Origin: Stenotrophomonas rhizophila | GTDB taxonomy: Bacteria; Pseudomonadota; Gammaproteobacteria; Xanthomonadales; Xanthomonadaceae | Direction: 5' to 3' | DNA length: 64,000 nt | NCBI RefSeq assembly: GCF_000661955.1 | Contig: NZ_CP007597.1 | Coordinates: 3,979,728-4,043,727 of the forward strand | Part shown: positions 7,804-56,463 of the stretch, piece by piece | Layout: each line of letters opens with the position of its first letter | Position numbering within the stretch: position 1 is the stretch's first letter | Translations under genes and position numbers: made by a program | Notes under the pieces: model-generated | The model's input: only the letters and a program-made list of their open reading frames with translations | Told to the model about the DNA's origin: nothing | Database searches by the model: none

Positions 7804-7821
7804 GCGTTCCGGGGACCGGCA

Positions 7822-8793: not shown

Positions 8794-8851
8794 GCAACCC
8801 TCCTGATCCGTGGCACCACCTTAAACCATGGGTCATGCCTGGCCGGAAGAC

Positions 8852-8912: not shown

Positions 8913-8921
8913 GCGTCCTAA

Positions 8922-30640: not shown

Positions 30641-31324
30641 CTATTTCCATAGCCCTTGATCCTTGATCTCCTTCACTATGTCCCTCATCACCTCCGGCTC
30701 GGCAAGTTTGGCGAGCAGCATGAGGTGTTCAACAGCCTTCACCTTTTGAAGGTTGCTGATACGGCAGGGACCGCCCATGGCAAGCGCAGGTACAAACCCG
30801 TACATTTCGTCCGGTGCCAAGTGGCCCAACCGCTTGTGTGCCCGCTCAAAGAGTGGAGCTTCGCGTTCGTCTGTCTGATCAAGACCGTCATGATTCAGAC
30901 CAGCGATCCACGTCGATATCAGGAAATCCTGCTTACCTTCGTTCATCCATCGCGACTTGTCGGCTGGGAAGATCATTCCCCATGGGCACTGGATGGTGAT
31001 ACTCGAACCTGATCGGGTCCCCCACAACATCAGCTCGCCAAATGCGCTTCGGCCGATAACGTAATAGTTGTCGGCATCAGAAAAACGAGTTCGCTCCAGC
31101 CATGCTTCGACGACGTCAATGTACTCGTCGGGATCGGTCATCCAGAACATGCCGCGACCGTATCCAGCAAAGCCATACGCCTCCCAATACTCCAGCAGCT
31201 TGTTTGGCAACTTCCCACGGTACTTGCTTAACGTGTGCTCCGACACCGGTCGCACATCCACGGCGGGACCGAATGCCTTCTTCTGGTAGAAGTAGGCGAA
31301 CTTGTCATCCAACATCTTGATCAT
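30641..31324 (-). CDS. Tdi1-like T6SS immunity protein (GAD-like plus DUF1851), copy 4
   Basis: The 227-residue product has an N-terminal GAD-like domain (KLPNKLLEYWEAYGFAGYG, MFWMTDPDEY) and a C-terminal DUF1851 part (SAFGELMLWGTRSG, DEMYGFVPALAMGG). This is the layout of Tdi1, which neutralises the Tde1 DNase effector. ATG 31324 overlaps the TGA of a broken effector tail as ATGA, with a GGAG ribosome site inside that tail. It is the most distal of four such genes and lacks an intact partner. Confidence 0.85.
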   Translation of the reverse strand: MIKMLDDKFAYFYQKKAFGPAVDVRPVSEHTLSKYRGKLPNKLLEYWEAYGFAGYGRGMFWMTDPDEYIDVVEAWLERTRFSDADNYYVIGRSAFGELMLWGTRSGSSITIQCPWGMIFPADKSRWMNEGKQDFLISTWIAGLNHDGLDQTDEREAPLFERAHKRLGHLAPDEMYGFVPALAMGGPCRISNLQKVKAVEHLMLLAKLAEPEVMRDIVKEIKDQGLWK

Positions 31325-32654: not shown

Positions 32655-33326
32655 CTACCAAAGCCCCGCATCCTTGGCCTCCTTCACGACGTCGCGCATG
32701 ACTTGCGGTGGACCCAAGTGAGCTAGCAATGTCAGATGCTCGATCGCTTTCACTCGCTGAAGGTGGTTGAGTCTGGCCGCGCCCCCGATGCTCAAAGCAG
32801 GCACGAAACCGTAGATCTCATCTACTTCAAGTTTCCCAAGCGTCCGCAGGGCCCTTTTGAATAGGGGAACTTCATTCTCATCCATTTCATCCAAATTCTC
32901 CTTGTCCATTCCGGACAGCCAAGTCGCGATGAGGAAGTCAGCTTCCTCCGGCGCTATCGGGGTTGGCGTGCTGCGGGGGAAGATCATTGCCCAAGCGGGC
33001 AGTATCTTCATGCATGGCCCGGTCTTTTCCCCCCAGATGAATAGCTTGCCAAACGCGGTTCTGCCAATGACGTGGTACTTGTCAGTGCCGTCAAACGGCG
33101 TGCCTTTGATCCATTGCTCAAGGACAAGGGCGTACTCATCGGGATCGGTCATCCAGAACAGCCCCTCGCCGTAACCGGCGAAACCGTACGCGGCCCAGTA
33201 GGCCAACAGCTTATCCGGGAGCCTTCCTCTGTAGCAGTTCAGTGTCTCGTGGGGGACTGCGCGAACGGCGACAGGCGGCCCGAATCCCATGTCTTCATAG
33301 AAGAAGCCAAAACTTCTGTCCAGCAT
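32655..33326 (-). CDS. Tdi1-like T6SS immunity protein, copy 2
   Basis: The 223-residue product has RLPDKLLAYWAAYGFAGYG, LFWMTDPDEYA, FGKLFIWGEKTGP and DEIYGFVPALSIGG. I set the start at ATG 33326, where the family begins, although the frame is open to 33464; TTG 33332 overlapping the TGA of the effector-tail remnant is possible. It is a divergent member of the array. Confidence 0.84.
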   Translation of the reverse strand: MLDRSFGFFYEDMGFGPPVAVRAVPHETLNCYRGRLPDKLLAYWAAYGFAGYGEGLFWMTDPDEYALVLEQWIKGTPFDGTDKYHVIGRTAFGKLFIWGEKTGPCMKILPAWAMIFPRSTPTPIAPEEADFLIATWLSGMDKENLDEMDENEVPLFKRALRTLGKLEVDEIYGFVPALSIGGAARLNHLQRVKAIEHLTLLAHLGPPQVMRDVVKEAKDAGLW

Positions 33327-33328
33327 CT

Positions 33329-33440
33329 TCAACCCTTGCACCTCTCTAAGTCGCCATTCATCATTTTCGGCTTCGTCATGCATGGCTTGGAGCGCAAGGT
33401 GGCGATGGTCATTGTTCCGGCGCCAACGCCAAGAAAACTC
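33329..33440 (-). pseudogene. Remnant effector tail and linker
   Basis: The frame FLGVGAGTMTIATLRS continuing to KPKMMNGDLERCKG ends in TGA at 33329. The ending matches the intact effector tail (KMNGGLERCK), and the linker matches the one before the 31.8 kb fragment (FLGPGAGTITIATLRS). It marks the junction of two duplicated units. Confidence 0.75.
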
Positions 33441-33454
33441 GCACTGCCCGAAAG

Positions 33455-34138
33455 CTACTTCCAAACACCTCGATCTTTTGCTTCCTTCACGATGTCCAAC
33501 ATGATTTCAGGTTCACCAAGTTGTGCAAGGAACATCAGGTGCTCGACGACCTTCACTTTCTTCAAGTGATCCAGCCGACCTGGTCCACCCATGACTAGTG
33601 CGGGAACGAAGCCATACATTTCATCCTCCGCCAACGGCCCAAGCACTTTGAGGGCGCGTTCAAACATAGGGCGGTCGTCATCGTCATCCTCATCCAAGCT
33701 GGTGCGCCTGGTTGATGCGAACCAGTTGGACATCATGCTGTCAGCGCGGCCATCACTTATTTGATCTGACTTGTCAGAGGGAAAGATCATGGCCTTGTTG
33801 CTGACAATCGTCAGGCTCGGACCTGTCTTGGTACCCCAGATGAACAATTCCCCAAAGGCACTTCGACCAATGACGTAGTACTTATCCCTTCCATAGAACT
33901 CTGTTCCGTGGAGCCACGCATTGAGGACTTCGGAGTAATCATCAGGATCTGTCATCCAAAAAAGACCATCTCCGTACCCAGCCAATCCATAGGCACTCCA
34001 GTACTCGATCAGTCTATTCGGCAACTTTCCGCGATAGTACGCCAACTTGTTAGACGGCACTAAGCGCGCATCGATTGCTGGCCCAAAACCTTCATCGTTA
34101 TAGAAAGAATCGAATCCTTCATCAACCATGTTCATCAT
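33455..34138 (-). CDS. Tdi1-like T6SS immunity protein, cognate copy (copy 1)
   Basis: The 227-residue product has KLPNRLIEYWSAYGLAGYG, LFWMTDPDDYS, FGELFIWGTKTGPS and DEMYGFVPALVMGG. It directly follows the intact DNase effector gene with an ATGA overlap, so it should be the antitoxin for it. ATG 34138 is preferred to 34144 because the GGAG inside the effector tail is eight bases before it but only two before the other. It is cytoplasmic and would bind the DNase domain. Confidence 0.9.
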   Translation of the reverse strand: MMNMVDEGFDSFYNDEGFGPAIDARLVPSNKLAYYRGKLPNRLIEYWSAYGLAGYGDGLFWMTDPDDYSEVLNAWLHGTEFYGRDKYYVIGRSAFGELFIWGTKTGPSLTIVSNKAMIFPSDKSDQISDGRADSMMSNWFASTRRTSLDEDDDDDRPMFERALKVLGPLAEDEMYGFVPALVMGGPGRLDHLKKVKVVEHLMFLAQLGEPEIMLDIVKEAKDRGVWK

Positions 34139-35988
34139 TTGCATCGCTCCAGACCGCCATTCATTTTCGTCTTCCCACGTTCGCTGATCGGTATCTTCGC
34201 CGCGGCATTGTCTAGATCCTCGATCCGAGTGTGGCCAGCCTCCCTACCACGATTCCACTGCCGACCAATGGTCTTGTTGACCTGACCATCTCCAAAATCA
34301 TCTATTCGATCTTTTCCGCCTGCGATCAGATCTGGATTGTGGAGAGCGTTTAAGAGCTCCATGGTTGCCGTGGCGTACTCCTGAGCACCCTTCTTTGCCT
34401 GATCGGTTGGGACTTTCGCTAGCTTCAGCTCATCGTACTTATCTCTGTAGACCTTATCTTCGTACTTCTTCCGTGCTGCCTTCGCGATCTTTGGATCTCG
34501 GTTGTCCGAATCGAACACCCTCCTTGCCTCAAGATAGTCCTCCACAGTCATGTCGTTCAGACCCGCTTCCTGTCCCTTCAACTGGCGATCCATTTCGTCA
34601 TATTTGCTTGCGGGGAGCTTCTGAGGGCTGAAGCAGCGTAAATTCTTCCGCGGCATCCGCTTCGGCAGCCGCGTGGTCTCGATCTTCCTGCCACCATCCG
34701 GCGTGCGGTTGCCATCGGCCTGACGCCGCTTGCGCGTCTTCAGTACCTTGGCCAAGCCCTTGAACGCGTCCTCCACCTCTTCCATCAGGTGCAGCAGCTT
34801 CTTGCCCACGCGGGCGGCCGTGTTGCCCGCCTTGGCCGCAGCATAGCCAAAGCCGCCGGCGCCGCCCAATTCCACGGTGACGGCGGCCAGCAGGATGGAC
34901 ACCACCACGTCCACCATGATCTGTGAGCTGAAGCGAGCCTCGATGCGCTCCTGTTCGTCGGGCGGTACTGCCTCCCACCAGGCCACGCCGAAGGACGGCA
35001 GCACCTCGGTGATGCCGGGGTCCTCGATCAGCAGATTGAACAGCTCCTTGGCCTCGCTGGCGGCATCCATGCCTTTGCCGCCGGTGGCGCGCAGGGCGGC
35101 GATCTTGCGGTCCAGGCCGTCGCGGTCGCCGGTGAGCAGCAGGCGGGTCCACTCCTTCAGTTCGCGGTCGGCCTTGTACATGAGCACGGCCATGTCCACC
35201 GCTGTTTCCACGGTGCCGGCCACGTAGTCCCACGTGCCCTGCCCCATGCCCAGCACCTGGTTGCCGCGCTGCAGGCCCCAGCGCATGGCGTTGCCCGCCT
35301 TGTCCCACTGCTGCCATTCCGGGGCCATGTCGGTGCGGGTCTGCACGACGATGGCGTCCAGGGCCGCCTTCAGCCGCGCGCGTGCGGCCAGGATGGGGGC
35401 GTTGTCTTCGTCGGGCTCGTCAGGCTGGAACAGCACCTGCACCATCTGTACCGGGCCAACGGTGACCTCGGGTATACGCGCGCGGCCCTCGTCGTCCAGG
35501 TGGCCGGTGCGGATGCTGTCGTCGGGCAGCATCACCTGGTAGGCCACGCCGCGCACCGGGGTGCGGTCGAGGTCGCCGTAGTGGTAGTGCAGCAGGATGT
35601 CCTGCTTGACCGGCGCGCGTTGCGCTGGCATGGCCTTGGTACCCGCCGCGACAAACCCACCCGCGGGCGGCACCGCTGCAGCGCCCGCGGTACTGCGGGC
35701 ACTGGGCGCCGCACTACCGCCCGACTCCACAGTTACCGTGCTCTGCTTCACCGCCACCAACTGGCAACCGCAGGCGATGTAGTCACCCTCACGCGCCAAG
35801 GGCTGGCCATCCACGAGAAACGTGGTGTCACCCGTGATGATGGGAAATGGGCCGTTGTGTTTGGGGCAGAAGGCCTTGTCGCCCACGCGAGCGACGGCCA
35901 TACCGTTGATGTCGGTGAAGGGCGAACCGGTGAGTACGGTGCCGCCGCTGCTGGTGCGATCGCCCACAACTATTACGGTGCGTCCCAC
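34135..35988 (-). CDS. T6SS PAAR effector with Ntox15/Tde1-like DNase domain
   Basis: The 617-residue product starts at GTG 35988 six bases after AAGGA. Residues 1-85 form a PAAR tip domain (TSSGGTVLTGSP, CPKHNGPFPIITGD, CGCQLVA). A middle region has helices, including a hydrophobic stretch near 380-395 (IMVDVVVSILLAAV). The C-terminal toxin has the HxxD signature (LHNPDLIAGG, H550 and D553) of Ntox15, the Tde1 DNase family. PAAR places it on the VgrG spike for delivery into rivals. Four immunity genes follow. No structural T6SS gene is in the window. Confidence 0.86.
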   Translation of the reverse strand: MGRTVIVVGDRTSSGGTVLTGSPFTDINGMAVARVGDKAFCPKHNGPFPIITGDTTFLVDGQPLAREGDYIACGCQLVAVKQSTVTVESGGSAAPSARSTAGAAAVPPAGGFVAAGTKAMPAQRAPVKQDILLHYHYGDLDRTPVRGVAYQVMLPDDSIRTGHLDDEGRARIPEVTVGPVQMVQVLFQPDEPDEDNAPILAARARLKAALDAIVVQTRTDMAPEWQQWDKAGNAMRWGLQRGNQVLGMGQGTWDYVAGTVETAVDMAVLMYKADRELKEWTRLLLTGDRDGLDRKIAALRATGGKGMDAASEAKELFNLLIEDPGITEVLPSFGVAWWEAVPPDEQERIEARFSSQIMVDVVVSILLAAVTVELGGAGGFGYAAAKAGNTAARVGKKLLHLMEEVEDAFKGLAKVLKTRKRRQADGNRTPDGGRKIETTRLPKRMPRKNLRCFSPQKLPASKYDEMDRQLKGQEAGLNDMTVEDYLEARRVFDSDNRDPKIAKAARKKYEDKVYRDKYDELKLAKVPTDQAKKGAQEYATATMELLNALHNPDLIAGGKDRIDDFGDGQVNKTIGRQWNRGREAGHTRIEDLDNAAAKIPISERGKTKMNGGLERCK

Positions 35989-36362
35989 GCCGTATCCTTG
36001 GCTTTTATTGATGTGCTGAAAGGCTAGCAGCGGCCATCCATGTTTCTCCTTGCCATGTGTACTCATTTCCGAGACATGCTTCATTATTTGAACGAAATGA
36101 GAGTCTTCCTACTGCACTGAGCGTCTGCATTCCAGGCGCTGTACGTGCCATTCCGCTTGGGGGTGGGCCAATCGACGTTGCGATTTTCTGGCGACTCGCT
36201 TTCCGTGCGCAATCCTCGCGGGACGCATCTCCCACTTCCCTGCTTTTCATCAAATTCCTATTCGCTGCCATGCGCGGGCATTGACACGCGTCGCAACACA
36301 TTCTGGCCGAAATGCTGATAGTCGATAGCGCGCAACATCGCGCGGATGCAAAGAGGCCATAG
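35989..36362. other. Intergenic region upstream of the T6SS effector
   Basis: About 370 bases of lower GC between the effector and a divergent small gene. It should hold both promoters. The frame of the effector stays open to an ATG at 36084, but the ribosome site favours 35988. I see no VgrG or adaptor gene fragment in it. Confidence 0.4.
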
Positions 36363-36988: not shown

Positions 36989-38539
36989 ATGGAACAAAAT
37001 GCAAAGGATCAGGCCGCAGCGCCTGTTACCAGGGAAGCAGTAGACGCCGCCGTGGCGGCATCTACCCTCGAAGTGGTTCAGCGCTATGGCGCTGCCGGTG
37101 CCGAGTACATCAAAGGCTACACCGGCCGTGATGCCGTCACCGGCGAGACGTTTGCCCTGGGCCTGAAGACCATCGCCGGTTACAGCGTGCCGGCCGATCA
37201 TGCCGCCAAGGTGCTGGCCAGCCAGGCCGGCTATGCCGCTGAAGTGGCCGCCACCAGCCGCGATAATGCCGAGGCGATCATCAACGGCTCGCCGGTACGC
37301 ACCGTGCGTAGCGATGATCACCCCGAGTACAAGCGCAACCACCCCGTGGTTGACCGGCTACAGGTGCTTGATGGTCAAGTGGTCATGGGCAGCGAGGGGC
37401 AGATGAAGTTTGTCGCTGCCAAGAACTGCGACGCGCTGCTGAACAAGATTGCCAAGCCCGATGGCGAGTTTGCCCGCTACCGTGGCATCAAGCTGGAGCT
37501 GCCCTCCGAGCAGATGGCCGGCGCAGAGGCCACCTGCCGCTCGGAAGCGGCCAAGCTGCGCGCCAACGCCGATGCGGTGGATGCACTGGGCAAGCCGGAG
37601 GTGGCCGCTCGCCTGCGCGAGCATGCCGACAACTACGATCAACTGGCCGGTAACCTAAAGGATGCCGGCCTGACCAGCGAGGATGCGCTCTTCTATCGCA
37701 CCCACCCCCGTATCGCCACGCTGCGTGACATCGCCCATACCAGCCACCGTGCCGGCATGGAGGGCGCCAAAGGCGGCGCCATGGTCGGTGCCGCCATCAG
37801 CCTGGCCACCAATGCCTTCCTGGTGGCCACCGAGCGCCAGCAGATGAAGGCAGCCGTAGGTGCGGTGGCCATCGGCACCGCCAAGGCCGCTGGGCTGGGC
37901 TATGCCTCCGCAGCGGCGGGCGCCACGCTCACCTCGGTGATGCAGCAATCCAGCAGCCAGGGCCTGCAGACGCTATCGCGCACCACTGCCCCGGCGATGG
38001 TGGTCAACGTGTGCATCACGATGGGGGTGAGCATCAAGCGCTACGCCAACAGCGAGATCGACGGCCTGCAGTTCATGGAGGAGATCGGCGAGAAGGGCGC
38101 TGGCATGCTGGCGTCGGGCATGATGGCCGCACTGGGGCAAGTGGCCATTCCCATTCCCGTGCTGGGCGCTGCCATCGGCGGCATGATCGGCTGCACATTG
38201 TCCTCGATGTTCTATCGCGAAGCGATGCTGGCCGGCAAGAACGCCGCCCTGGCCAAGGAAGCACTGGACCAGGCCATCGAGCTGCATCAAGCCGCCCGTG
38301 AAGAAATCCAGCGGCAGCGTGAGGCACTGGCGATGTTCATGGTGGCCGAACTGCCTGCTATGCGCGCAGCCACAACCGAGCTGCTCCTTGCACTGGATGC
38401 CAGCGCGGCTGCACTGGAGGTGGATGCCTTCGCCACGGCGATCAACAGCTACGCCACGCTGCTCGGTGCCACGCTGGAATTTGGCTGCATGGACGAGTTC
38501 GAGATGTTCATGGCCAGCGATCAACCGCTTCGGCTCTAG
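36989..38539 (+). CDS. Glycine-zipper-rich membrane-associated protein, first gene of TerB-containing set
   Basis: The 516-residue product has a soluble N-terminal half (ETFALGLKTIAGYSVPADHA, coiled-coil-like helices near 170-230). Residues 260-425 then hold glycine/alanine-rich hydrophobic helices with GxxxG patterns (GGAMVGAAISLATNAF, AIGTAKAAGLGYASAAAG, LGAAIGGMIGCTLSSMF). An amphipathic helical tail follows. GGAGG precedes the ATG. It forms an operon with a TerB-like gene and a second glycine-rich protein. The helices suggest membrane insertion or a pore, but no family is named with confidence. Confidence 0.7.
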   Translation: MEQNAKDQAAAPVTREAVDAAVAASTLEVVQRYGAAGAEYIKGYTGRDAVTGETFALGLKTIAGYSVPADHAAKVLASQAGYAAEVAATSRDNAEAIINGSPVRTVRSDDHPEYKRNHPVVDRLQVLDGQVVMGSEGQMKFVAAKNCDALLNKIAKPDGEFARYRGIKLELPSEQMAGAEATCRSEAAKLRANADAVDALGKPEVAARLREHADNYDQLAGNLKDAGLTSEDALFYRTHPRIATLRDIAHTSHRAGMEGAKGGAMVGAAISLATNAFLVATERQQMKAAVGAVAIGTAKAAGLGYASAAAGATLTSVMQQSSSQGLQTLSRTTAPAMVVNVCITMGVSIKRYANSEIDGLQFMEEIGEKGAGMLASGMMAALGQVAIPIPVLGAAIGGMIGCTLSSMFYREAMLAGKNAALAKEALDQAIELHQAAREEIQRQREALAMFMVAELPAMRAATTELLLALDASAAALEVDAFATAINSYATLLGATLEFGCMDEFEMFMASDQPLRL

Positions 38540-38630
38540 CCGTACCAGAGCTTTATTCAGGCGGCCAATCCCTGCGCGCGCTGGCCGCCGTTGCTGATTC
38601 AGCGCGTCATCTTGACCCTCCGGAGAGACG

Positions 38631-39185
38631 ATGTTCCTGTACTTGCTGCCCGACGCCGAGCAGGCGACCTTCCTCAAGGTTGCCCGCCTCATGAGCGTTA
38701 GCGACAACACCCTGCTGTGGGATGGAAAAGCCCACGACGAGCTCACCGGTGATACCGACCTGAGCAATGTGAGCCTGGCCGAATCCGAGCACGAGCGCGC
38801 CATCTTCGACAACTTCGCACGCGAGTGCGGGAAGGTATACCGCGCCGATGGCGTAACCAAAGACCTGCTCGCGCGCCTCAAGCAGTTGCCCCTGCTGCGC
38901 CAGGCCGATCCGGACGAGCGCGCCCGCGTGGCCTGCGACCTGCTGGGCACCTTGGTGGACGACACACTCACCGAGTCCATGCAGCCCTCCTCACCGAAAG
39001 TGATGCTGTATGAGTTGATGCTGCTGGCCTTGGCCGACGGCGAAGTCTCCAGCGTGGAGGAAGCCCAGCTGCGCTGGCTGGCCGATAGATTCGGCGTGGA
39101 CCCTTACACCTATGCCGACCTGCTGGAGCGCGCCATGAGCATCAATGCCGAAGCCAGCCGCACCATCGCCATCATCCTTGAGTAA
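38631..39185 (+). CDS. TerB-like domain protein
   Basis: The 184-residue product is all-helical. Its C-terminal half (KVMLYELMLLALADGEVSS, then VEEAQLRWLADRFGVD) has the acidic ADGE turn and helix spacing of TerB (tellurite-resistance) domains, which sit at the membrane-cytosol face and bind metal. GGAG precedes the ATG, and the next gene starts 12 bases after the stop. In this set it may link the two glycine-rich membrane proteins. Confidence 0.72.
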   Translation: MFLYLLPDAEQATFLKVARLMSVSDNTLLWDGKAHDELTGDTDLSNVSLAESEHERAIFDNFARECGKVYRADGVTKDLLARLKQLPLLRQADPDERARVACDLLGTLVDDTLTESMQPSSPKVMLYELMLLALADGEVSSVEEAQLRWLADRFGVDPYTYADLLERAMSINAEASRTIAIILE

Positions 39186-39197
39186 ACGGAGCAGAAC

Positions 39198-40223
39198 ATG
39201 ATTCCAGTGTTTGTCGGCGCGGCCATGGCCGCCAGTGCGATTTACGGCCTGTACAAAGGTGGCAAGGCGGTGTCTGACCACAAGGACGCCAACGTCGCCA
39301 ACGCAGATGCCAACCAGCTGATCAGCCGTGGCACCAAGCTGTTGGATGACCAGCGTAAGAAAACCAACGCCGTGCTGGAGGACTACGGCGCGCGCAAATT
39401 GCGCTCGTTCAACGGTGCCATCAAAGACTTCGTCGAGGCCTTCGGCAAGTTGAAGAACGTGGACAGCGTGAGCTCACCGGAGCTGGAGAAGCTGGTTGAC
39501 GGTGATTTCTCCGTCGTCTCCCTCGATGGGCTGCGCCGCGACTACCAGCTGTTGATGGATTCCGGCCTGGGCGTTGGCGCAGGCCTCGGCAGCGGCGCAG
39601 CGCTGGCGTTTGGCGCGTACAACGGCACCTTCCTGCTGGCCAGCGCCAGCACCGGCACCGCCATCTCCACGCTGAGCGGTGCGGCGGCCACCAATGCCAC
39701 CCTGGCATGGTTGGGTGGTGGCGCGCTGTCTGCCGGTGGCTTTGGCATGGCCGGCGGCACCATGGTGCTAGGCGGACTGGTAGCCGGCCCGGCGTTGGCG
39801 ATCTTCGGCCTGGTGGTCGGCGCCAAGGCCGACGCCGCGCTGTCCACCGCCAAGCGCAACAAAGAAGTGGCGCGCACGCACTACGATGAGGCCGTACTGG
39901 CCGCCGAGCGCCTGGCCGCCGTGCAGGTGATCACCACACTGGCCAACAAGACCTTCTCCAAGCTCGGCATGCCCCTGCGCCGTGGCGTTGCGGACATCCG
40001 CGCCGCCATCGCGGCGCATGGCCAGGACTTCAGCACCTACCCGCTGGAGACGCGCGAGAAGATCTTCCGGGCGGTCAAGATCGCACAGTTGATCAAGCTC
40101 ATGGTGGATACGCCGATCCTGGACAAGGATGGCGCACTAGTGCTCTCCACCGAGAAGACCGTGCGCGACGTGGATGGCGTGCTGGCCCAGCTGCAGGAGC
40201 AAGCCGCGCCGGCGGCTGCCTAA
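39198..40223 (+). CDS. Second glycine-zipper-rich protein of the TerB set
   Basis: The 341-residue product begins with a short glycine/alanine helix (VFVGAAMAASAIYGLYKGG), has a helical region with charged residues to about 110, and then a glycine-rich hydrophobic core at about 115-210 (GVGAGLGSGAALAFGAYNG, WLGGGALSAGGFGMAGG, VLGGLVAGPALAIFGLVVG). The tail is helical. GGAG precedes the ATG. Proteins with this WLGGG-GGMA-LGGxVAGPxL core occur widely as hypotheticals. A terminator-like hairpin follows, closing the operon. Confidence 0.72.
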   Translation: MIPVFVGAAMAASAIYGLYKGGKAVSDHKDANVANADANQLISRGTKLLDDQRKKTNAVLEDYGARKLRSFNGAIKDFVEAFGKLKNVDSVSSPELEKLVDGDFSVVSLDGLRRDYQLLMDSGLGVGAGLGSGAALAFGAYNGTFLLASASTGTAISTLSGAAATNATLAWLGGGALSAGGFGMAGGTMVLGGLVAGPALAIFGLVVGAKADAALSTAKRNKEVARTHYDEAVLAAERLAAVQVITTLANKTFSKLGMPLRRGVADIRAAIAAHGQDFSTYPLETREKIFRAVKIAQLIKLMVDTPILDKDGALVLSTEKTVRDVDGVLAQLQEQAAPAAA

Positions 40224-40232: not shown

Positions 40233-40262
40233 CCGGCTACCCGACAGCGGTCGGGTAGCCGG
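40233..40262. terminator. 12-bp-stem hairpin after the TerB operon
   Basis: CCGGCTACCCGA and its exact complement flank a six-base loop, starting ten bases after the stop. It should separate the three-gene operon from the WYL gene. Confidence 0.7.
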
Positions 40263-40334: not shown

Positions 40335-41369
40335 ATGAAAGACCGTTCCAGTGACACCCTCATGCGCCAATGGGAGATGCTGCGCCTGATCCCACGCGCT
40401 CCGCGCCGCATCACCGCCAAACAGGTTCGTCAGGCGCTCATTGAGTTGGGCTTCACCGCCACCAGCCGCACCATCGAGCGGGACCTGCAGAATCTGTCCT
40501 CGCGGTTCCAGCTGGTCGTGGATGAGAGCGACAAGCCCTTTGGCTGGAGCTGGAGCAAGGACGCCAATTTTGCCTTCACGCCCCGCCTGTCTACCGCGCA
40601 GAGCGTGGCGCTGCTGCTCTCACAGGCGCACCTTCGCAGCCTGCTGCCTGCCACTGCCATGAATGAACTGATGCCCGTGTTCGACATGGCACGGGGCGAT
40701 GTTGCCGCCACCGGCTGGAGCGAATGGCATCGGCGCACCGCCATTCTGCCGACGGGCATGGCGCTCGAGGCACCGGAGGTGGCCATGGCCGTGCAGGTGG
40801 ATGTGCACCGGGCGCTCCTGCTGCAGCGACGCCTCACCGGCTGGTACCGCAGCAAGGGGACCGATGAGCCCAAGGAAATGGTGATGCACCCACTCGGGCT
40901 GATCGTGCGGGGCCCCGCGCAGTACCTGGTCTGCACGTTGCGCCACTACCCCGATGTGCGGCACCTGGCGCTGCACCGCCTCTCGCGCACGCAGGTGCTG
41001 GACGAGCCAGCCAACGCGCCGGAGGGCTTCGAGTTTCAGCAGTACGCATCCACGGTGGCCACCGCATACCAGGGCCGGGGGCAGATCGCACTGGTGGTGC
41101 GCTTCCATGCGGCTGCGGCCGAGCATCTGCGCGACACGCCGCTGTCAGCCGATCAGGTGATCCAGCCCCTGGGCGATGACCAGATAAGGCTGCACGCCAC
41201 GGTAGAGGATGATCAATCGCTGCGCTGGTGGCTGATGGGGTTTGGTCGCCATGTGCAGGTGGAAGCACCGGCGCACCTGCGTGAGGAAATTGCTGCGGAC
41301 CTGCGCGCGGCAGTGGCCGGGTATGGCTGCCCTCTGGGCGGGCAGATGGCGGAAAGCATAGCGACGTAG
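40335..41369 (+). CDS. WYL-domain transcriptional regulator
   Basis: The 344-residue product has an N-terminal winged helix (residues 5-65: VRQALIELGFTATSRTIERD) and a WYL ligand-binding domain from about 150 (RRLTGWYRSKG replaces the canonical WYL, then MHPLGLIVRGPAQYLVC). The C-terminal WCX extension ends WWLMGFGRHVQVEAP. Regulators of this type (BrxR, CapW, PafBC relatives) repress defence operons until nucleic acid or damage signals appear. It lies between the TerB set and an McrBC-like system. ATG 40335 fits the family start. Confidence 0.87.
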   Translation: MKDRSSDTLMRQWEMLRLIPRAPRRITAKQVRQALIELGFTATSRTIERDLQNLSSRFQLVVDESDKPFGWSWSKDANFAFTPRLSTAQSVALLLSQAHLRSLLPATAMNELMPVFDMARGDVAATGWSEWHRRTAILPTGMALEAPEVAMAVQVDVHRALLLQRRLTGWYRSKGTDEPKEMVMHPLGLIVRGPAQYLVCTLRHYPDVRHLALHRLSRTQVLDEPANAPEGFEFQQYASTVATAYQGRGQIALVVRFHAAAAEHLRDTPLSADQVIQPLGDDQIRLHATVEDDQSLRWWLMGFGRHVQVEAPAHLREEIAADLRAAVAGYGCPLGGQMAESIAT

Positions 41370-42121: not shown

Positions 42122-44395
42122 GTGACCATCGATCTTAAGAGCAATACCGGGCTGGCCGATGCCTGCCATGCCGCGCTTGAGCAGCACCGCAAGTGGCATC
42201 ACCTGGATGGCTGGATCTCGCGGCTCTCCACGTGGCTGGCGCGGGTTGAGGCCGCCGACCACGATACGTTCGTGAGCGCAGCGTTCCAGCGGGAGCTGTG
42301 GGAAGAACGCACGATCGCGGCCACCGGCCAGGGCCACATCGACGTATCGGCCGTGATCGCCAGCAACGCCATTGCCGAGATGCTCTGGGACCTCAAGCAG
42401 GCCGAGCTCCCCGCCACCGAGGATGAGCGCATCGCCTGGTTTGGCGCCGCATGGGAGCGCCTTGACGACAGCGTGCTTGCACTGGTTCCCAAACGCCCCC
42501 GGCTGAAGATGTATCGCGTGTTCGCCTCCCTGTGGCCGGCGCACTTCACCACGGTGGCGCATTACCAGAAGCTGCGGGCGCTAGGCAAGGCGATGGGGCT
42601 GAGCACGGGTCTGGATCACCGCACCGAGCTTCACCAGCGCGTGTTGCAGCGCTTTGATGAAGCGGGCGTGGCGACCACCAGCCGCGAAGAGCGCATGACC
42701 CTGGCGTGGGCGGTATTCGTGCATTTTGTGCAGGAGAAAAGCGACGCCGCCACCGAGGTGCCCGGCGAATCGCCCAGCGAGTTGAAGCTCAACCCTCTTC
42801 CAGCCGAGCGCCGGCGGCGCGGCATGCTGGCCATCAACGGCTCGGTGCCCAGCGTGGTGGCCATGCTGGCTTTCGCAAAAGATGGCTGCAAGCGCGCCGA
42901 CTTCCTGGAGCACATCCGCTCGGTTAACCCAAAGCTGGCAACCAACTCCCTGGGCACCAACCTCAACGCGCTCATCGCCGAGTGGGGCGCGCTTCGCTCC
43001 ACGGGCGACGACCTGTATCTCACCCCCCGGGGCGAGGCATTGCTGGAATCTGGTGAGGCCGAAGACGTATCGGACTGGCTGCTTACCCAGATTCTCGGTT
43101 TTGACAACCTGCTGCACGCGCTCGACCAAGCGCCGTTGCCGCAGAAACAGGCCATCAGCCGGCTGCAGCGGGTCAACCCGGGCTGGACCAGCAATTTCGC
43201 TCCTACCGTGCTGATCAACTGGATCAAAGGCATGGAGCTGGCAGAGTTGGATGCAGCCAAAGTGCTGCACCTTACGCCGCGGGGCCGGGAGTGGGCCTCG
43301 CGTATCCATTGGAAGCCCGGCGAGCTACCCGCACGGGCCAAGGAAGCGGCAGACACTGCCAGCACCTCGGTAGTGACCGAGGTGGATGACCTGTGGTCGC
43401 AGCTTCCGTCGGTGCAGGCCATCAAAGCCTCATTTGGCAAGGACCTGGCATTTGATCCGAGCCTGATTACCCAGCTGCACACCGGCGTGTGGAACCGGCG
43501 CCACCCGCGCCGTCATTTTGCCGTGCTCACTGGCCTGAGCGGTGCCGGCAAGACCCTGTTGGCCATGGGGTACGCCAAGGCGCTGTGGGCTCATGCCGAT
43601 GAGGAACCTGGCGACCAGAAGGGCTGGCATGTAGTGGCGGTTCAACCGGGCTGGCATGACCCGAGCAGCCTGCTGGGCTATGTGAACCCCATCGACACCG
43701 ATGTGTACATGCGCACTGGCTTTCTGGAGTTCCTGCTGCGCGCCAGCGCCGATCCCGACCGGCCCTACGTTGTGCTGCTGGATGAGATGAACCTGTCGCA
43801 CCCCGAGCAGTATCTGGCGCCGCTGCTGTCGGCGATGGAAACCGGCGATGACATCGAGCTCCACGCATTGGGCGATGAGGTGGGCGATGTACCCGGCCGC
43901 CTGCCCTACCCCGCCAACCTGGTCATCATCGGCACCGTGAACATGGATGAGACCACCCACGGCCTGAGCGACAAAGTGCTCGACCGCAGCACGGTCATCG
44001 AGTTCTGGGACATCCAAGTGGAACAGTATCCGGGTTGGACCACCACCACGTTGGCACCGGATGACCTGACCTTGGTAAAGACAGTGCTTGCCGAACTGAT
44101 GGCCCCCCTACGCGCGGTGCGGCTGCACTTTGGCTGGCGCACCATCGGGGATGTACTGGGCTATGTGGAGGCCGGTGTGGACGGTGGCGAGCTCACCGCC
44201 CGCCAAGCGTTGGATCTCTCTGTGTATGCCAAGGTACTGCCCAAACTGCGCGGCGAGGACACCCGGCGGCTGCGTGAGGCATTCGCGGCGGTAAGCACCG
44301 TTCTTGCCGCGCACCAGTTGGACACATCGGCCACCAAGGTGAAGGAGCTCACCGTGGACCTGCACGAGCAGGGTAGCGCGCGGTTCTGGCGCTGA
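42122..44395 (+). CDS. McrB-like AAA+ NTPase
   Basis: The 757-residue product starts at GTG 42122 after AAAGGGA. About 450 N-terminal residues form a helical and winged-helix region of unclear type. The AAA+ domain has Walker A GLSGAGKT near 470, Walker B VVLLDEMNLSHPEQY near 550 and GTVNMDETTHG near 604, the sensor form typical of the McrB clade. The next gene, four bases on, encodes a DUF2357 nuclease, so the pair should work like McrBC: the NTPase ring moves DNA and the partner cuts. The target modification is unknown. Confidence 0.87.
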   Translation: MTIDLKSNTGLADACHAALEQHRKWHHLDGWISRLSTWLARVEAADHDTFVSAAFQRELWEERTIAATGQGHIDVSAVIASNAIAEMLWDLKQAELPATEDERIAWFGAAWERLDDSVLALVPKRPRLKMYRVFASLWPAHFTTVAHYQKLRALGKAMGLSTGLDHRTELHQRVLQRFDEAGVATTSREERMTLAWAVFVHFVQEKSDAATEVPGESPSELKLNPLPAERRRRGMLAINGSVPSVVAMLAFAKDGCKRADFLEHIRSVNPKLATNSLGTNLNALIAEWGALRSTGDDLYLTPRGEALLESGEAEDVSDWLLTQILGFDNLLHALDQAPLPQKQAISRLQRVNPGWTSNFAPTVLINWIKGMELAELDAAKVLHLTPRGREWASRIHWKPGELPARAKEAADTASTSVVTEVDDLWSQLPSVQAIKASFGKDLAFDPSLITQLHTGVWNRRHPRRHFAVLTGLSGAGKTLLAMGYAKALWAHADEEPGDQKGWHVVAVQPGWHDPSSLLGYVNPIDTDVYMRTGFLEFLLRASADPDRPYVVLLDEMNLSHPEQYLAPLLSAMETGDDIELHALGDEVGDVPGRLPYPANLVIIGTVNMDETTHGLSDKVLDRSTVIEFWDIQVEQYPGWTTTTLAPDDLTLVKTVLAELMAPLRAVRLHFGWRTIGDVLGYVEAGVDGGELTARQALDLSVYAKVLPKLRGEDTRRLREAFAAVSTVLAAHQLDTSATKVKELTVDLHEQGSARFWR

Positions 44396-44399
44396 GCCG

Positions 44400-45962
44400 A
44401 TGATCGTTCTTATCTGCCATGACCAGGCGCGTACCCGCTTTGAGGTGTCCCCGGGCGATTGCTGCAGTGGCTTCCGAGAAACGGGCGTCTACGAGTTCCA
44501 GGTGCTGCCGGACGGCGCCACTTTGTACATCGACGAAGCCGCGGTGGAGCCGGTATCCACCGCGGCGGGGCCTGTGCTGCGCTGGCAGGCGGGCTTCTAT
44601 GCCGGTGAGGTATCGGCCGAGGTGGTGGACAGCCTCGGCCGGCCGTTGGCGAGCTATCGTCTGGATGTGGCACCGGATGCGCGCAAGATGGGCGCTGCGC
44701 TCTACCAGCAGATGATGGCGCAGATCCAGGCGTTCGACCCCGCCCTGCTGTTGGGCTCGGAAGCCGCGCAGGGCAACATCGGCGTTGTCGGCGATGTGAC
44801 CACGTTGTTTCTTCAGTACGCCCGGCTGCGCCGGCACTCGGAAGGGCTGATCAAAGCGCTGCAGCAGGTGGCCGCGCGCCCCCTGACCCGGCTGCAACAC
44901 GAGCGCAGGCAGGTTCCCTTCCAGCGGGTGAGGCGAATTGACACTACCTCGGCCCGGCGACTGATGGCACGGGCCGAAACGGCGGGGCTGCTGCGCAGGC
45001 AGCCTTCCGCCGCAGGCAGTACGCCCTTGTTGGAGGTCGTTCAATCGGCTGAGAACCTGGATAACCCAGCCAACCGCGCATTGGCGGCAACGCTGTCACA
45101 GGTACGGTTACGCTGCGCACACGTGGCCAGCGGCCTGGCGAAGTTGGCCGCCGTGGACAAAGAAGAAGGCGCACGCACGCCGCTGGCCTGCCGCATTGGC
45201 CGCAAGCTTGAGTATCTGGAGGCACAGGCAAGCCGCCTGCAGTCACTGGCAAAGCTATCCCCCTACGCAAACGTGAGCCGCCGCGAGGTGGGTGCGGCAG
45301 GGTTGACCGCGATCTCCGCGCATCCGGAGTACGCGCGCGCGTATCGCCTGGGGTGGGCAACGCTGCGGCCGGGCGTGGCCGGGCCGGATCGCGACGAGCA
45401 ACTGTGGCTCAGCCCCACCTGGGAGATCTACGAACGCTGGTGCTACGTGCGCATTCTGGACAGCCTGCGCACGCTGTTCCCGGGCCTGGCATGGGCACGC
45501 GGGACGCAAACTTCGGTGGACGTGATTCGCTACGTGGGAGCCGCCGGGCATACACGCGTGGAAGCCTCGCTGCAGCGAACGCTCGTGACCGCCGAGGGTG
45601 CATCCAAGGGGCTGCGGAGTATCTCGCTGCAGTTGAAGCCAGACATCCTGGTGACCACGGAGATCGCGGGCGCCCGGCGGATGCTGGTGCTGGATGCGAA
45701 GTACCGCACTGGCCGGCACAACATCCTGCAGGCCATGCGCTCGGCGCACCTCTACCAGGATGCGCTGCGATGGGACGGCCAGCGCCCGGACTGCTCCCTG
45801 CTTCTGGTGCCTGCGGGGGGTGACGCGCCCTGGCTGGAGGTACCTGCCTTTCATGCGGAGAACCGCACCGGCGTGCACGTGTTGGCGCTTGATCAACCTG
45901 CAGCGGCGTTGGATGACATGCTGCGGCGGTGGCTGCACCCGGCGCAGCCCGCCGCCTGTTGA
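44400..45962 (+). CDS. DUF2357 / PD-(D/E)XK nuclease, McrC-like partner
   Basis: The 520-residue product has an N-terminal beta domain (about 1-110), a helical DUF2357 region (about 130-330) and a C-terminal nuclease fold. There LKPDILVTTEI near 412 and RMLVLDAKYRTG near 430 give the PD and D-x-K residues. DUF2357 proteins accompany McrB-type ATPases as the cutting subunit. It is tightly linked to the AAA gene. The ribosome site overlaps the end of that gene, suggesting coupling. Confidence 0.85.
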   Translation: MIVLICHDQARTRFEVSPGDCCSGFRETGVYEFQVLPDGATLYIDEAAVEPVSTAAGPVLRWQAGFYAGEVSAEVVDSLGRPLASYRLDVAPDARKMGAALYQQMMAQIQAFDPALLLGSEAAQGNIGVVGDVTTLFLQYARLRRHSEGLIKALQQVAARPLTRLQHERRQVPFQRVRRIDTTSARRLMARAETAGLLRRQPSAAGSTPLLEVVQSAENLDNPANRALAATLSQVRLRCAHVASGLAKLAAVDKEEGARTPLACRIGRKLEYLEAQASRLQSLAKLSPYANVSRREVGAAGLTAISAHPEYARAYRLGWATLRPGVAGPDRDEQLWLSPTWEIYERWCYVRILDSLRTLFPGLAWARGTQTSVDVIRYVGAAGHTRVEASLQRTLVTAEGASKGLRSISLQLKPDILVTTEIAGARRMLVLDAKYRTGRHNILQAMRSAHLYQDALRWDGQRPDCSLLLVPAGGDAPWLEVPAFHAENRTGVHVLALDQPAAALDDMLRRWLHPAQPAAC

Positions 45963-47879: not shown

Positions 47880-49115
47880 TTACACGCTGATCCAAGTTCG
47901 GACCTCTTCAGCGAGCACGCCTTCGCTCAGCACAGGGTCTGTCCCAGATGACGCCACCCACGCAAACTTCCTCACCCGAATCTTGCCGATTGCGGCTGGC
48001 AAGGGTACCAATCCATCCTCCCTGTGCCTGAAGCCCACGATGAAGCCTCTCTCTGCCTCAAAGCCAGATGCGAATGCCACGATCTGATTGAAGCTCGCAC
48101 GGTCCCAGTCGCCACCGAAGTACTTGTACTTGACGTCCCCCACGATGCGACCTCCGTCCACAACGAGATCTGGATTGAGCGTGATCCCACCCTCCGTTAA
48201 CCGGAGCCCTCGCTTCCTCACATCAATCGGTGATAGCGCGTTTGCGAGGATGTTGCGCAATCCACTTTCCACTATGCCTGGCGTTGGGATCAGGAAGCAG
48301 GTCCCCGCGACATTGCCCGCTTCCATGGATGCTCCTCGCGACGCCAGAACTAGCCTCGCAAGCGGCAGTACCCGTGAGTAGCGCGCATGCAGACGTGTCG
48401 CTTGGAATCGCCAGTCGGATTCACGTAGGACACCCACAGGACCCATCGCCAGTACGAGACGGCGCGCGTGCCGCCTCTGGGACAAGTCGATAGCCGGGTC
48501 CGCAGCCACGGCTGCACAGCTCGCCTTCATCAGACGATTGATCGCCGCGTCTTCGTCTAGCTCTGAATAGGTGCAATGAACCACGACTCGACCAGAGAGG
48601 TTTGCCAGCACCGTGGGTACAGGCTGTACGGAGCCTCTCACCTCAGAAAGGCCATCCTCGTACTCGCTGTAGTCCCTATGCAGTCCAAGCCGTAGCACTC
48701 GCTCGGCTTCCGTCAGCAGCCAGCTACAGACCAGTTCACGCAACTCTTGCGAGCTGCCGACGCGAGTTGGCGAATCATCCACTCTCGGCGCCACCTCAGA
48801 CCTCCCCATTAGGTGGCAGAAGTGGCTCAGCGGGATCTTGGGCACAACCTGGAGCTGTAGGTCGCCCAAACGAACTACGCCCACTACGTTCCTAAATTTC
48901 AGTAGGTGCGTGCCATTAGGCCGATACCCGACGCTAACCACTGATGCTTGTTCATCCGGGTTACCGATACCGTCGGTATTCGTTTTAGCCTTTGAGCCCC
49001 ACCAGTTTAGGCGGCCGGCCATCCGACGACCAATTTCCTCTAACGCGTGAACCTGCTGATCTGATAAGCGAACAGAGCATTCTCGATTTTCCTCGAGAAC
49101 CACTTCAGTCAGCAT
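47880..49115 (-). CDS. mcrC: McrC nuclease subunit
   Basis: The 411-residue product has an N-terminal region (GIGNPDEQASVVSVGYRPNG), a helical middle and a C-terminal PD-(D/E)XK nuclease motif: LNPDLVVDGGRIVGDVKYKY near 315-332. McrC supplies the cleavage activity of type IV restriction complexes. Its start overlaps the end of mcrB by 11 bases, the usual coupling. GC is lower than the core genome, consistent with transfer. Confidence 0.88.
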   Translation of the reverse strand: MLTEVVLEENRECSVRLSDQQVHALEEIGRRMAGRLNWWGSKAKTNTDGIGNPDEQASVVSVGYRPNGTHLLKFRNVVGVVRLGDLQLQVVPKIPLSHFCHLMGRSEVAPRVDDSPTRVGSSQELRELVCSWLLTEAERVLRLGLHRDYSEYEDGLSEVRGSVQPVPTVLANLSGRVVVHCTYSELDEDAAINRLMKASCAAVAADPAIDLSQRRHARRLVLAMGPVGVLRESDWRFQATRLHARYSRVLPLARLVLASRGASMEAGNVAGTCFLIPTPGIVESGLRNILANALSPIDVRKRGLRLTEGGITLNPDLVVDGGRIVGDVKYKYFGGDWDRASFNQIVAFASGFEAERGFIVGFRHREDGLVPLPAAIGKIRVRKFAWVASSGTDPVLSEGVLAEEVRTWISV

Positions 49116-51129
49116 AGTCAGGCCACAACTGGTTGACGCTCAGGGAACCCATGCCATCCGGCTGATCGTAGTAGTACTCCTCAATGAGGGGCAGCAGCTT
49201 TCGCATCCAGACTTCCCTTAGAACTTTTGGGGACATGTCATTGCGCATGAAGAAGGAATGGCCGATGGTGTGGTGTCGGTCCAGATCCCTTGTGAGATGC
49301 CCATTGAGCTTGGACAGCCCCTCTATCACGGCTGCTGAGGGTAGAGCTATGGAGCTGAAGTAGCGCTCCAGCACTTCCGCATCCGGTGCGAGCTCGAAAA
49401 CCTCGAAACGGCGCCGCATCGCCGCATCTATGGAGCGAATGCTGCGATCGGCGGTGTTCATCGTTGCGATGAACATCAGGTTCGAAGGCAGCTTGAACTC
49501 CTTGGAGAGCTGGAGACTAATTGCCTGATCCCGATACTCAAGAAGATACAGAAGCTCGCCCATCACCCGAGGGAGATTTGCCCGATTTGCCTCATCCATG
49601 ATGATGACGTAGGGATGGTCTGGATCGTTGAGATGTCCCGCCTGGCGCATATCACGCACTACCTGCAGCACTACACCAGCTGTCACATCGAACGAAACGC
49701 CTGAAGGACCTGCTACTGGTCGCAACCCTTCGATGAATGCCTCGTACGTGTAGCTGGGATGGAACTGCACCAGTCGCACTGCACCCTTACGACCGTTGGT
49801 TAGGTAGGTTGCAAGCTTCTGGGCCACCCAGGTTTTACTGGTGCCGGGTGGGCCCGCCAGAATCAGCTGTGGCTGACTCCCGCGCAGACAATCGATCATG
49901 CTGCCGAGTGCTTCTTCGGTGAGGAGCGTCTCAGCCGCCAACCATGACATGTCCAGATCCGGTTCGGGCTCGGCTGAAATGGGCGATCCGTCCGCGCCAG
50001 CGGCATCTTGGCCGTCATCGCCGCCGGGGTATGAGTCTTCGAGTCTCTCGTACACGTAGCCGAATGCATTTTGATTCACCACGCTGAGAGATGTGGAGAA
50101 CCCGTCTACCAGTTCCAATTCCTCCACGGGAAAGGGGTCAATGAACTCGATAGCCTCGACTTTGAACCACGTCTTGTAAGCGCCGTTGGCGCTATCGTTG
50201 AATCGACTTCCTTCGTCGTGGGTCCCCGGTAGCGCGGGCCATGGATTGGCCATTCCATCCGCAGACGGCGCGCAGCGGAGCGCGCCCACGCGCGCCTTGG
50301 CGACGATCTGCCGCCTGCCGCCATTGATGTAAAGCGTGAAACCTCTGGAGAGCTCGTCACGAACGCCCTCTCGGAGCCTGAATGTCCAGCCGCTCGCCCA
50401 TCCACCATTGCTGTCTATGCTCTCTCGTACAGAGCTAAAGTCCCGAGAGATTGTCCCCCATGTCCCCACGAGGGCAACGCGTCGTTCCAGCCCTGGCGCC
50501 ACCCGGCCTTTGTGAGCATCGACGACTGCGCCGTAAGCCCGCAGAGCAGCGTGGAGATCGGCGATCAGCGATTCATCGGAGGGGAGTTCATCCACGCCGT
50601 AGTACTTGGACGCGATCGTGGACGCCTCATACATACGGGCCTTGCTGCCCTTGGAACGGAGATCTATGCCCGCGGAGAAGTCGAAGCCCGCTCCAGCAAG
50701 GCCGGGAATGAGAGCCCTCACCCCATCTGCGCGGTCATTGAGCTTCCTAACGGCCTCCTTGCGATGAAGTGACTCGAGCTCGGTGACTCCTTGGGCGAGA
50801 GTGAGGTAGACCCCGTCCCCTGCCTCGCTGAAGAGGTAGACCACATAGACGCCACGTTGAGTGGTGGTGGTCTCTCGTCGATCCAGGATAGATAGCCAAG
50901 GGATTGTTGCCCAGTTGCCCTTGCCGTAGCTCGCCACCACTTTTAGATGCTGGTTGCCGGCAATAGTCGGAATGCGCTCAACTGCCTCTCTTAGCTCCCG
51001 AAAGACTTCTGAGACTTCATTCTCCCCGCCAAAGCTGACTTCAGATCGCGCTTGCTGGTACGTGCGCAGGATCGTGCCAAGCATGCCCCTTAGGTCCTGG
51101 GCTTTTTGGCCTGGCAATTGATCTGTCAT
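49105..51129 (-). CDS. mcrB: McrB NTPase subunit with N-terminal DUF3578 (MrcB) domain
   Basis: The 674-residue product begins with a DUF3578/MrcB-N domain (about 10-190: LKVVASYGKGNWATIPWLSI, VYVVYLFSEAGDGVYLTL) that recognises modified DNA. A middle region is followed by the AAA+ GTPase: GPPGTSKTW near 426 (Ser in place of the usual Gly before Lys), VIIMDEANRANLPRVMGELL near 505 and MNTADRSIRSIDAAMRRRFE near 557. It should form hexamers that drive McrC. AGGAGC precedes ATG 51129. Confidence 0.9.
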   Translation of the reverse strand: MTDQLPGQKAQDLRGMLGTILRTYQQARSEVSFGGENEVSEVFRELREAVERIPTIAGNQHLKVVASYGKGNWATIPWLSILDRRETTTTQRGVYVVYLFSEAGDGVYLTLAQGVTELESLHRKEAVRKLNDRADGVRALIPGLAGAGFDFSAGIDLRSKGSKARMYEASTIASKYYGVDELPSDESLIADLHAALRAYGAVVDAHKGRVAPGLERRVALVGTWGTISRDFSSVRESIDSNGGWASGWTFRLREGVRDELSRGFTLYINGGRRQIVAKARVGALRCAPSADGMANPWPALPGTHDEGSRFNDSANGAYKTWFKVEAIEFIDPFPVEELELVDGFSTSLSVVNQNAFGYVYERLEDSYPGGDDGQDAAGADGSPISAEPEPDLDMSWLAAETLLTEEALGSMIDCLRGSQPQLILAGPPGTSKTWVAQKLATYLTNGRKGAVRLVQFHPSYTYEAFIEGLRPVAGPSGVSFDVTAGVVLQVVRDMRQAGHLNDPDHPYVIIMDEANRANLPRVMGELLYLLEYRDQAISLQLSKEFKLPSNLMFIATMNTADRSIRSIDAAMRRRFEVFELAPDAEVLERYFSSIALPSAAVIEGLSKLNGHLTRDLDRHHTIGHSFFMRNDMSPKVLREVWMRKLLPLIEEYYYDQPDGMGSLSVNQLWPDYAD

Positions 51130-51709: not shown

Positions 51710-52387
51710 TCACGCCGCAACGCCTGGCTCCTGGCAAGCAACTCGATAACTCTCACTTTGGGCAGCCGCAAGTATTGCGTCAGAGATTGCCTGGCAAAGT
51801 GAAAGCACAATCGTAACCCGCTCTCTGAATACATCACTATCCACCTGAAGGCCTTCGCCGTGGGCGATTTTATGTCGCTCTGCTAGCAGAAGTGAATCGA
51901 CGAATGTCTTCGCCGCGACCCACTCGGCAGCGCTCATGTTCAACTGGCCATCAATCCCTATGGATTCCATCAGGCAACTCAAAACTTCCGAACTTGGATT
52001 CCCATGAGTTCCGACCTTCCACCGGGCCGGGCCCGTAGTTGCATCGCGAATCTTCTTTGAGAGTTTTAGGTGATGCTGCCGCGCGCCGGGATAATTTGCC
52101 TTTGCAGCCTCCACGACATCATCATAGAAGGAGATGGCCACGAAATGATCGCTCATTTCGGTGTACTTAAGCTCTTGGGAAAATACGAATTTTACATACA
52201 GGCCAACAGCCTTTTTTAAGAATCCCTCCCAATGTGCACAGAGCATAACGACGCCAGCTCTGCAGTAATACTGCTTGGAAGCCGACACTCTGGCTGTAGC
52301 GCGCAAGATCGCCACTATTTCCTTCTTCCTCCACGCCAGATCCCTGTCTATCTTTTCCTGAAGTTGCACTATCGTCTGGGGCGGCAT
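51710..52387 (-). CDS. MAE_28990/MAE_18760-like HEPN protein
   Basis: The 225-residue product is helical. It has ARVSASKQYYCRAGVVMLCA and HWEGFLKKAVGLYVKF near the start and LLLAERHKIAHGEGLQV near 175, which contains an R-x4-H HEPN signature. This family is a predicted RNase-type toxin found in defence islands, often next to DUF262 genes. GGGAG precedes the ATG. It follows the DUF262 gene by 41 bases, probably in one operon. Confidence 0.82.
   Translation of the reverse strand: MPPQTIVQLQEKIDRDLAWRKKEIVAILRATARVSASKQYYCRAGVVMLCAHWEGFLKKAVGLYVKFVFSQELKYTEMSDHFVAISFYDDVVEAAKANYPGARQHHLKLSKKIRDATTGPARWKVGTHGNPSSEVLSCLMESIGIDGQLNMSAAEWVAAKTFVDSLLLAERHKIAHGEGLQVDSDVFRERVTIVLSLCQAISDAILAAAQSESYRVACQEPGVAA

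Positions 52388-53775: not shown

Positions 53776-56463
<2,688 letters not shown>

Follow-up and report, generated by a model that had tools for sequence, protein, structure and literature searches.

What kind of system is encoded by three adjacent genes of Stenotrophomonas rhizophila, two of them for proteins with glycine/alanine-rich hydrophobic segments and one for a TerB-like protein, that lie next to a series of restriction-type genes? The genes, here termed g1, g2 and g3, are located in a 64,000-nucleotide stretch of DNA (contig NZ_CP007597.1 of assembly GCF_000661955.1, positions 3,979,728 to 4,043,727 of the forward strand), which as a whole is referred to as the window and whose own numbering is used throughout. 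The trio is a recurring unit with a WYL-type regulator as a regular partner, and it is a divergent, TerB-bearing branch of the catalogued candidate PDC-M09. Its first protein carries a conserved E...D...QxK signature that may mark a restriction-enzyme-like head. The features of the locus are as follows.

36989..38539, plus strand: g1 (516 amino acids, aa), remote PDC-M09B relative with a putative restriction-enzyme-like head followed by a coiled and hydrophobic Gly/Ala-rich part
37193..37513, plus strand: putative D-QxK restriction-enzyme-like head of g1, residues 69-175, from conservation and a low-confidence element order in the AlphaFold2 (AF2) model
37241, 37352, 37400 and 37406, plus strand: codons of the g1 head signature, E85, D122, Q138 and K140
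38631..39185, plus strand: g2 (184 aa), TerB-like middle gene, fast-evolving and sometimes absent
39198..40223, plus strand: g3 (341 aa), remote PDC-M09A relative with an N-terminal hydrophobic helix, long coils and a Gly/Ala-rich hydrophobic core
39570..39839, plus strand: residues 125-214 of g3, its Gly/Ala-rich core, which is conserved across the sister family and in some nuclease-linked proteins
40233..40262, plus strand: hairpin with a perfect 13-bp stem and a 4-base loop between g3 and the WYL gene, from sequence reading and folding
40335..41369, plus strand: WYL + WCX regulator (Pfam), fourth co-directional gene and regular partner of the trio

That g1 to g3 are three adjacent co-directional genes with ribosome sites had been claimed in an earlier note on this DNA, and the open reading frames (ORFs), a GGAG-type site read before each gene and the ratios of nonsynonymous to synonymous substitution (dN/dS) all agree. 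Relative to the S. rhizophila homologues of locus L004, dN/dS is ~0.10 for g1, ~0.07 for g2 and ~0.06 for g3, and relative to L005 it is ~0.21, ~0.13 and ~0.18, respectively. All three genes are under purifying selection, and on these low values they are therefore real coding genes. The g1 reading frame opens upstream of the start, at 36932, and a named relative of its product is an S. rhizophila protein with 85% identity. The hairpin previously thought to close the operon does follow g3 with its perfect stem, but it has no T-run and is succeeded by the WYL gene, which had been overlooked.

Recurrence of the unit was evaluated at 36 loci obtained by scanning genome contigs with a 21-row g1 alignment, all from Pseudomonadota by their titles; this sample is anchored on g1, and the frequency of solitary g1 is not readable from it. 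A g3 relative lies 3' of g1 on the same strand at every locus (with broken frames for both genes at L039), and at 30 loci a TerB-like gene separates the two, which bears out the recurring unit proposed previously. The three proteins also vary together. Pairwise identities of g1 and g3 correlate at r=0.89 (35 loci, 595 pairs), those of g1 and g2 at r=0.77 and those of g3 and g2 at r=0.88 (26 loci, 325 pairs), each value being unmatched in 500 shuffles and including whatever host relatedness contributes. The WYL protein tracks the trio less closely (r=0.41, 24 loci). The distribution of the trio is patchy: g1 was found in 5 of 91 genus genomes and in 3 of 369 class genomes (two weak), and g3 relatives in 2 of the 198 genomes scanned for the family and 8 of the 369 for the class, the window's own genome being included in each count. 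The DNA of a Cedecea trio gave no match in E. coli genomes.

The two larger genes belong to a family that has been catalogued. PADLOC identified g1 as PDC-M09B (E 7.6e-12) and g3 as PDC-M09A (E 8.6e-24), the M09B model is matched by all 21 rows of the g1 alignment, and hhalign comparison with the canonical pair reached 99.5% for g1 (396 columns) and 99.7% for g3 (97 columns, mainly the core). With one of the two PADLOC models used per gene, the M09B model gave 41 bits for the window's genome versus 471-689 for five canonical genomes or records, and the M09A model gave 75 bits versus 275-394. The canonical system consists of two genes with A directly before B in each pair opened, whereas in the window and the 36 loci B precedes A, mostly with the TerB-like gene between them. 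The low model scores, the gene order and the extra gene argue that the window trio is a divergent TerB-bearing branch of PDC-M09 and not a canonical member. Because this candidate is catalogued, the kind of system was already known, and the description of the operon as undescribed holds for the B-TerB-A branch but not for g1 and g3 themselves. The term PDC-M09 does not occur in the open-licence papers searched, and the searches made there found no description of a B-TerB-A branch with a WYL gene or of the D-QxK signature.

The canonical family was reached through g3 by way of one gene pair (L055, genome G270). Relatives of the M09B protein encoded there occur on 60 plasmid records, and Klebsiella accounts for 46. 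L055-type DNA gave partial matches only, in 6 of 5426 E. coli genomes. The wider family extends to plasmids of Klebsiella, Lactococcus and Azospirillum; on the Azospirillum plasmid the order is WYL-g1-g3, the middle gene is missing and a member of the PD-(D/E)XK family is encoded further along. The M09 pairs of four Klebsiella plasmids (L128, L131, L132 and L133) are annotated as hypothetical proteins. On the Lactococcus plasmid pDRC3A a dynamin family protein (L136, 7055-9232) lies beside the canonical pair, with a weak match to the M09A model (15.9 bits, E 2.9e-4). On a Ruminococcus albus plasmid (L138, 124-6311) the gene for a g1-like protein follows genes for an ATP-binding protein of 1001 aa and a hypothetical protein of 543 aa, which may represent a different arrangement within the family.

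The N-terminal part of g1 holds the conserved signature. E85 and D122 are present in all 36 g1 proteins compared (35 loci and the window; L039, with its broken frames, was left out), and QxK is in register in 33; the remaining three (L021, L023 and L036) carry QTK two columns off, which we read as the same motif. The pattern GxIAE...D...QxKF is kept in 8 of 8 sister-family proteins of the canonical M09B type, from Pseudomonadota, Cyanobacteriota, Bacillota and Actinomycetota, and plasmid-borne sister proteins share 27-52% identity with that of L055. By eye, the Ruminococcus relative reads GFSAE...D...QVKF. In the AF2 model the head is predicted, at low to moderate confidence, to contain a helix (69-98), strands at 104-107, 123-127, 130-133 and 138-139, a helix (144-155), a strand (169-171) and a further helix (179-199). 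This element order and the motif are what we take to be those of PD-(D/E)xK enzymes of the D-QxK (Mrr-like) type. The absence of an ATPase asserted for the operon agrees with Pfam, but the parallel assertion that it encodes no nuclease is made doubtful by the conserved E...D...QxK signature.

The TerB identity of the middle gene was correctly recognized at the outset, although it is weak for the window protein itself: g2 matches Pfam TerB (PF05099) with E 3.4e-4 and 21.3 bits, under the cut-off of 24.4, which is exceeded by four of the six g2 homologues scanned. A profile search of the PDB with g2 gave nothing significant, the best hit being the COG3793 tellurite resistance protein 2ou3 (E 0.098). 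The first profile detected a TerB-like gene at 26 of the 36 loci and the extended profile, built after adding the L028 gene (Pfam TerB, E 2.1e-7), brought the number to 30, with the split gene of L036 and a 70-aa piece at L039 counted as positive. Such a gene was not found at L014, L018, L025, L029, L032 and L033, and it is duplicated at L010, L027 and L035. Mean pairwise identity over the 325 pairs with g2 is 54% for g1, 57% for g3 and 36% for g2. Thus g2 is a fast and optional part of the unit.

Partners of the unit were examined by clustering 351 neighbour ORFs picked by a simple rule. A WYL cluster occurs in 27 of the 36 loci and in the window, and its identity was borne out by Pfam in 4 of 4 members tested. 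With L036 and L039 left out and a doubtful match at L037 uncounted, a WYL relative lies at most 700 bp away in 23 of 34 loci; the gene is downstream of the trio in the window and three other Stenotrophomonas loci, and elsewhere it is mostly upstream. In the portion of PMC4012209 on which we draw, WYL domains are described as predicted ligand-binding regulators of defence systems that are also fused to TerB and Mrr-like domains. A second, cysteine-rich cluster with a CxxCxxCC motif lies directly 3' of g3 in at least 17 of the 36 loci, with another apparent by eye at L039, and Pfam agrees with a putative zinc- or iron-chelating identity in both members tested; the pattern C..C(G/S).CC does not occur in any frame of the window. 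Directly 5' of g1, the loci L006, L012, L015, L016 and L018 encode small proteins whose N-terminal segment is hydrophobic; these form a single cluster, and the L012 member, the sole one tested, has a SHOCT domain.

The Gly/Ala-rich core of g3 has a wider range than the unit. At least 6788 g3 relatives were found at E up to 0.001 among 8000 candidates scored, some of which share the core alone; three plasmid records contained g3 relatives and the phage records searched contained none. Of ten regions inspected in other genomes, nine contain a match to the g3 core. A g1 relative lies beside the core in one of the nine (L055), and none was detected in the other eight, including L058, which is cut by a contig end. 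As to whether homologues are found mostly alone, a point raised in the earlier note, the g1-anchored loci are all paired whereas the g3 core stands without a detected g1 relative in these eight stretches. The L053 stretch encodes (7659-9563, minus strand) a 634-aa protein that combines a g3-type Gly-rich core with a C-terminal Endonuclease I domain (PF04231, E 2.2e-29). Neighbours of g3-type cores at L059 and L056 have weak matches below cut-off to NERD (E 0.0042) and HNH (GH-E, E 0.061), respectively. Nuclease-like motifs at L054, L057 and L060 were seen by eye only and have no Pfam support, and no such motif was found near the core of L052. This small sample fits a role of the core as a membrane module combined with nucleases. 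Upstream of its g1, the TerB-less locus L018 has an additional g3-like gene (8763-9755) that is divergent and shows a weak Ferritin match below cut-off.

The surroundings of the trio in the window are listed below.

30641-31324, 32655-33464 and 33455-34144, minus strand: three Tdi1-type immunity genes (GAD-like + Tdi1_C)
34135-36084, minus strand: PAAR-Ntox15 DNase effector of the type VI secretion system (T6SS), upstream of the trio
42122-45962, plus strand: McrB-like ATPase and DUF2357/PDDEXK_7 protein (Pfam; PDC-M26A E 1.5e-36 for the ATPase)
47880-51129, minus strand: McrBC pair, MrcB_N type
51710-52387, minus strand: HEPN protein
52429-53721, minus strand: GmrSD_N protein (NsnA model, E 2.7e-62)
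53776-56487, minus strand: pyruvate dehydrogenase E1, housekeeping edge of the island

The defence island inferred previously is thus real, as two McrBC-type systems, a HEPN gene and a GmrSD-like gene adjoin the trio. The segment 42122-53721 holds two different McrBC-type systems in tandem followed by the HEPN and GmrSD_N proteins, and the segment 30641-36084 is an immunity-gene array in which the effector is followed by three immunity genes. At the other loci, the 184 of the 351 neighbour ORFs that encode at least 220 aa were scanned with PADLOC at 1e-15, leaving out the WYL and Cys-rich clusters. The 25 of 47 and 25 of 35 families listed include type I restriction-modification (R-M; three members), ZacA/B/C, LmuB, JukA, HEC-05, IetA, MzaC and DrmMII; these are tallies with no background set, from which no enrichment is claimed.

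The reading that we tentatively prefer, at slightly less than an even chance, is that the trio encodes a WYL-controlled membrane complex with a restriction-enzyme-like (D-QxK) head and an optional TerB-like adaptor, a divergent branch of PDC-M09. The N-terminal helix and Gly/Ala-rich core of g3 would hold that protein in the inner membrane, and g1 would join it through its own hydrophobic part, leaving the D-QxK head in the cytoplasm. The fast-evolving g2 would adapt or gate the complex, and the WYL protein would set expression in response to a ligand derived from infection or damage. The output would be nucleic-acid cleavage at the membrane, directed at incoming phage DNA or at the host, possibly together with membrane leakage. 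An antiviral function is suggested by the genomic context, and under this explanation the trio would have spread horizontally.

Several results weigh against this complex. The hhalign comparison of the g1 head with Mrr_cat and NERD remained below 1% (28 of 30 loci per set, two per set being dropped for stops or cut length), in a test where the positive control, Mrr against NERD, reached merely 21%, and the L055-type head scored no better against nuclease profiles. A PDB profile search with the g1 head returned no nuclease, nor did the PDB sequence profiles of g1 and g3 give a significant relative. The AF2 models of g1 and g3 are weak (mean predicted local distance difference test score ~57) and fold searches with them were uninformative, with an alignment that barely covers the g1 head. 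We consider it roughly even odds that the head adopts a PD-(D/E)xK fold. GxxxG motifs in g1 are at the level expected from composition (4 versus 3.5 in shuffles, with 945 of 2000 reaching 4). All four Klebsiella plasmids opened have terA-E within a few kb of the canonical pair, an arrangement that fits a stress role as well; these plasmids are mutually related and are not four independent cases. PDCs are termed unvalidated candidates in the excerpt of PMC12988326 consulted, and two other PDCs, tested in their own host, had no defence activity according to the section of PMC12409345 cited here.

A broader version of the proposed complex, which we regard as doubtful, would make PDC-M09 and its TerB-bearing branch a defence machine of a new type, a membrane-embedded nuclease in which the D-QxK head of g1, anchored to the glycine-rich membrane partner g3, cuts foreign DNA at cell entry. 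Its TerB-like adaptor would be exchangeable, and the WYL protein would act as the switch. The glycine-rich core of g3 would, in addition, have been co-opted several times to place other nucleases at the membrane, among them Endonuclease I and perhaps HNH- and NERD-like ones.

Abortive membrane permeabilisation, the idea of the earlier note, is an unlikely explanation. Here g1 and g3 would build a gated channel or pore that the TerB-like protein keeps closed until infection opens it and the cell depolarises; the g1 head would serve as a sensor or docking site and not as a nuclease. In its favour, both proteins have Gly/Ala-rich hydrophobic segments (in g1, residues 262-282 and 371-409), the g3 core is strongly conserved, and the g1 head has no significant nuclease profile match. 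The glycine zippers ascribed to both proteins hold for g3, where GxxxG is enriched (9 versus 4.1 in shuffles, with 34 of 2000 reaching 9) alongside hydrophobic segments, but not for g1, which has the Gly/Ala-rich segments with GxxxG at composition level. Against a pore, E, D and QxK rank with the best-conserved residues of both g1 and the sister family, beyond the needs of a docking surface. The TerB-like gene is missing from 6 of the 36 loci, and therefore it is not a general gatekeeper.

We assign a similarly low probability to a Ter-type envelope or metal stress module, in which the trio would confer tolerance to membrane, metal or oxidative stress and would lie near defence genes as both are mobile. 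The TerB-like middle gene, the putative metal-chelating protein directly 3' of g3 and the ter operons near the canonical pairs would all be explained in this way. The trio and its WYL gene include no TerC or TerD, however, and the neighbours in the window are of restriction type, with type I R-M genes adjoining other members of the unit. Ter modules have themselves been linked to antiphage roles, as stated in the available part of PMC10250203. An effector of interbacterial competition, with a g3-type core carrying a toxic nuclease head across a membrane and g2 as immunity protein or chaperone, is very improbable: g3-type cores do occur elsewhere fused to or beside nuclease-like genes, the L057 protein begins like a signal peptide (by eye) and T6SS effector and immunity genes lie just upstream in the window, but g1 to g3 show neither PAAR nor any other secretion domain by Pfam, the sole candidate immunity gene, g2, is absent from the six TerB-less loci, and a WYL regulator is a regular partner.

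These assignments matter as most listed g3-family relatives have no function name, a few have unrelated automatic names and the PADLOC pair is merely a candidate. The conserved E...D...QxK signature provides a first catalytic hypothesis that can be put to test, and the added TerB-like gene ties the recurrence of TerB in defence loci to the place of canonical M09 pairs beside ter operons.

Among known systems, Shango likewise places a TerB-like protein within an operon of three genes in a defence island, as presented in the part of PMC10250203 cited above; there TerB is combined with an ATPase and a helicase, whereas the partners in the trio are membrane-type, and neither an ATPase nor a helicase was found by Pfam among g1, g2, g3 and the WYL gene. 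The plasmid ter operons (terA-E) share a TerB-like protein with the trio and adjoin canonical M09 pairs, and they differ from it by the TerC/TerD family proteins that Pfam does not find in g1 to g3 or the WYL gene. PD-(D/E)xK nucleases of the D-QxK type resemble the g1 head in G-x-x-(A/G)-E within a helix followed by D and QxK, and in the helix-strand-strand-strand-helix-strand order of the g1 model; the head differs from them in lacking a significant profile match and in being fused to a hydrophobic membrane-type part. With PDC-M09 the likeness extends to both large proteins, which are homologous to g1 and g3 over most of their length, and to regulation, since a YafY family (WYL-type) regulator precedes the canonical pair in E. 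coli ET896.

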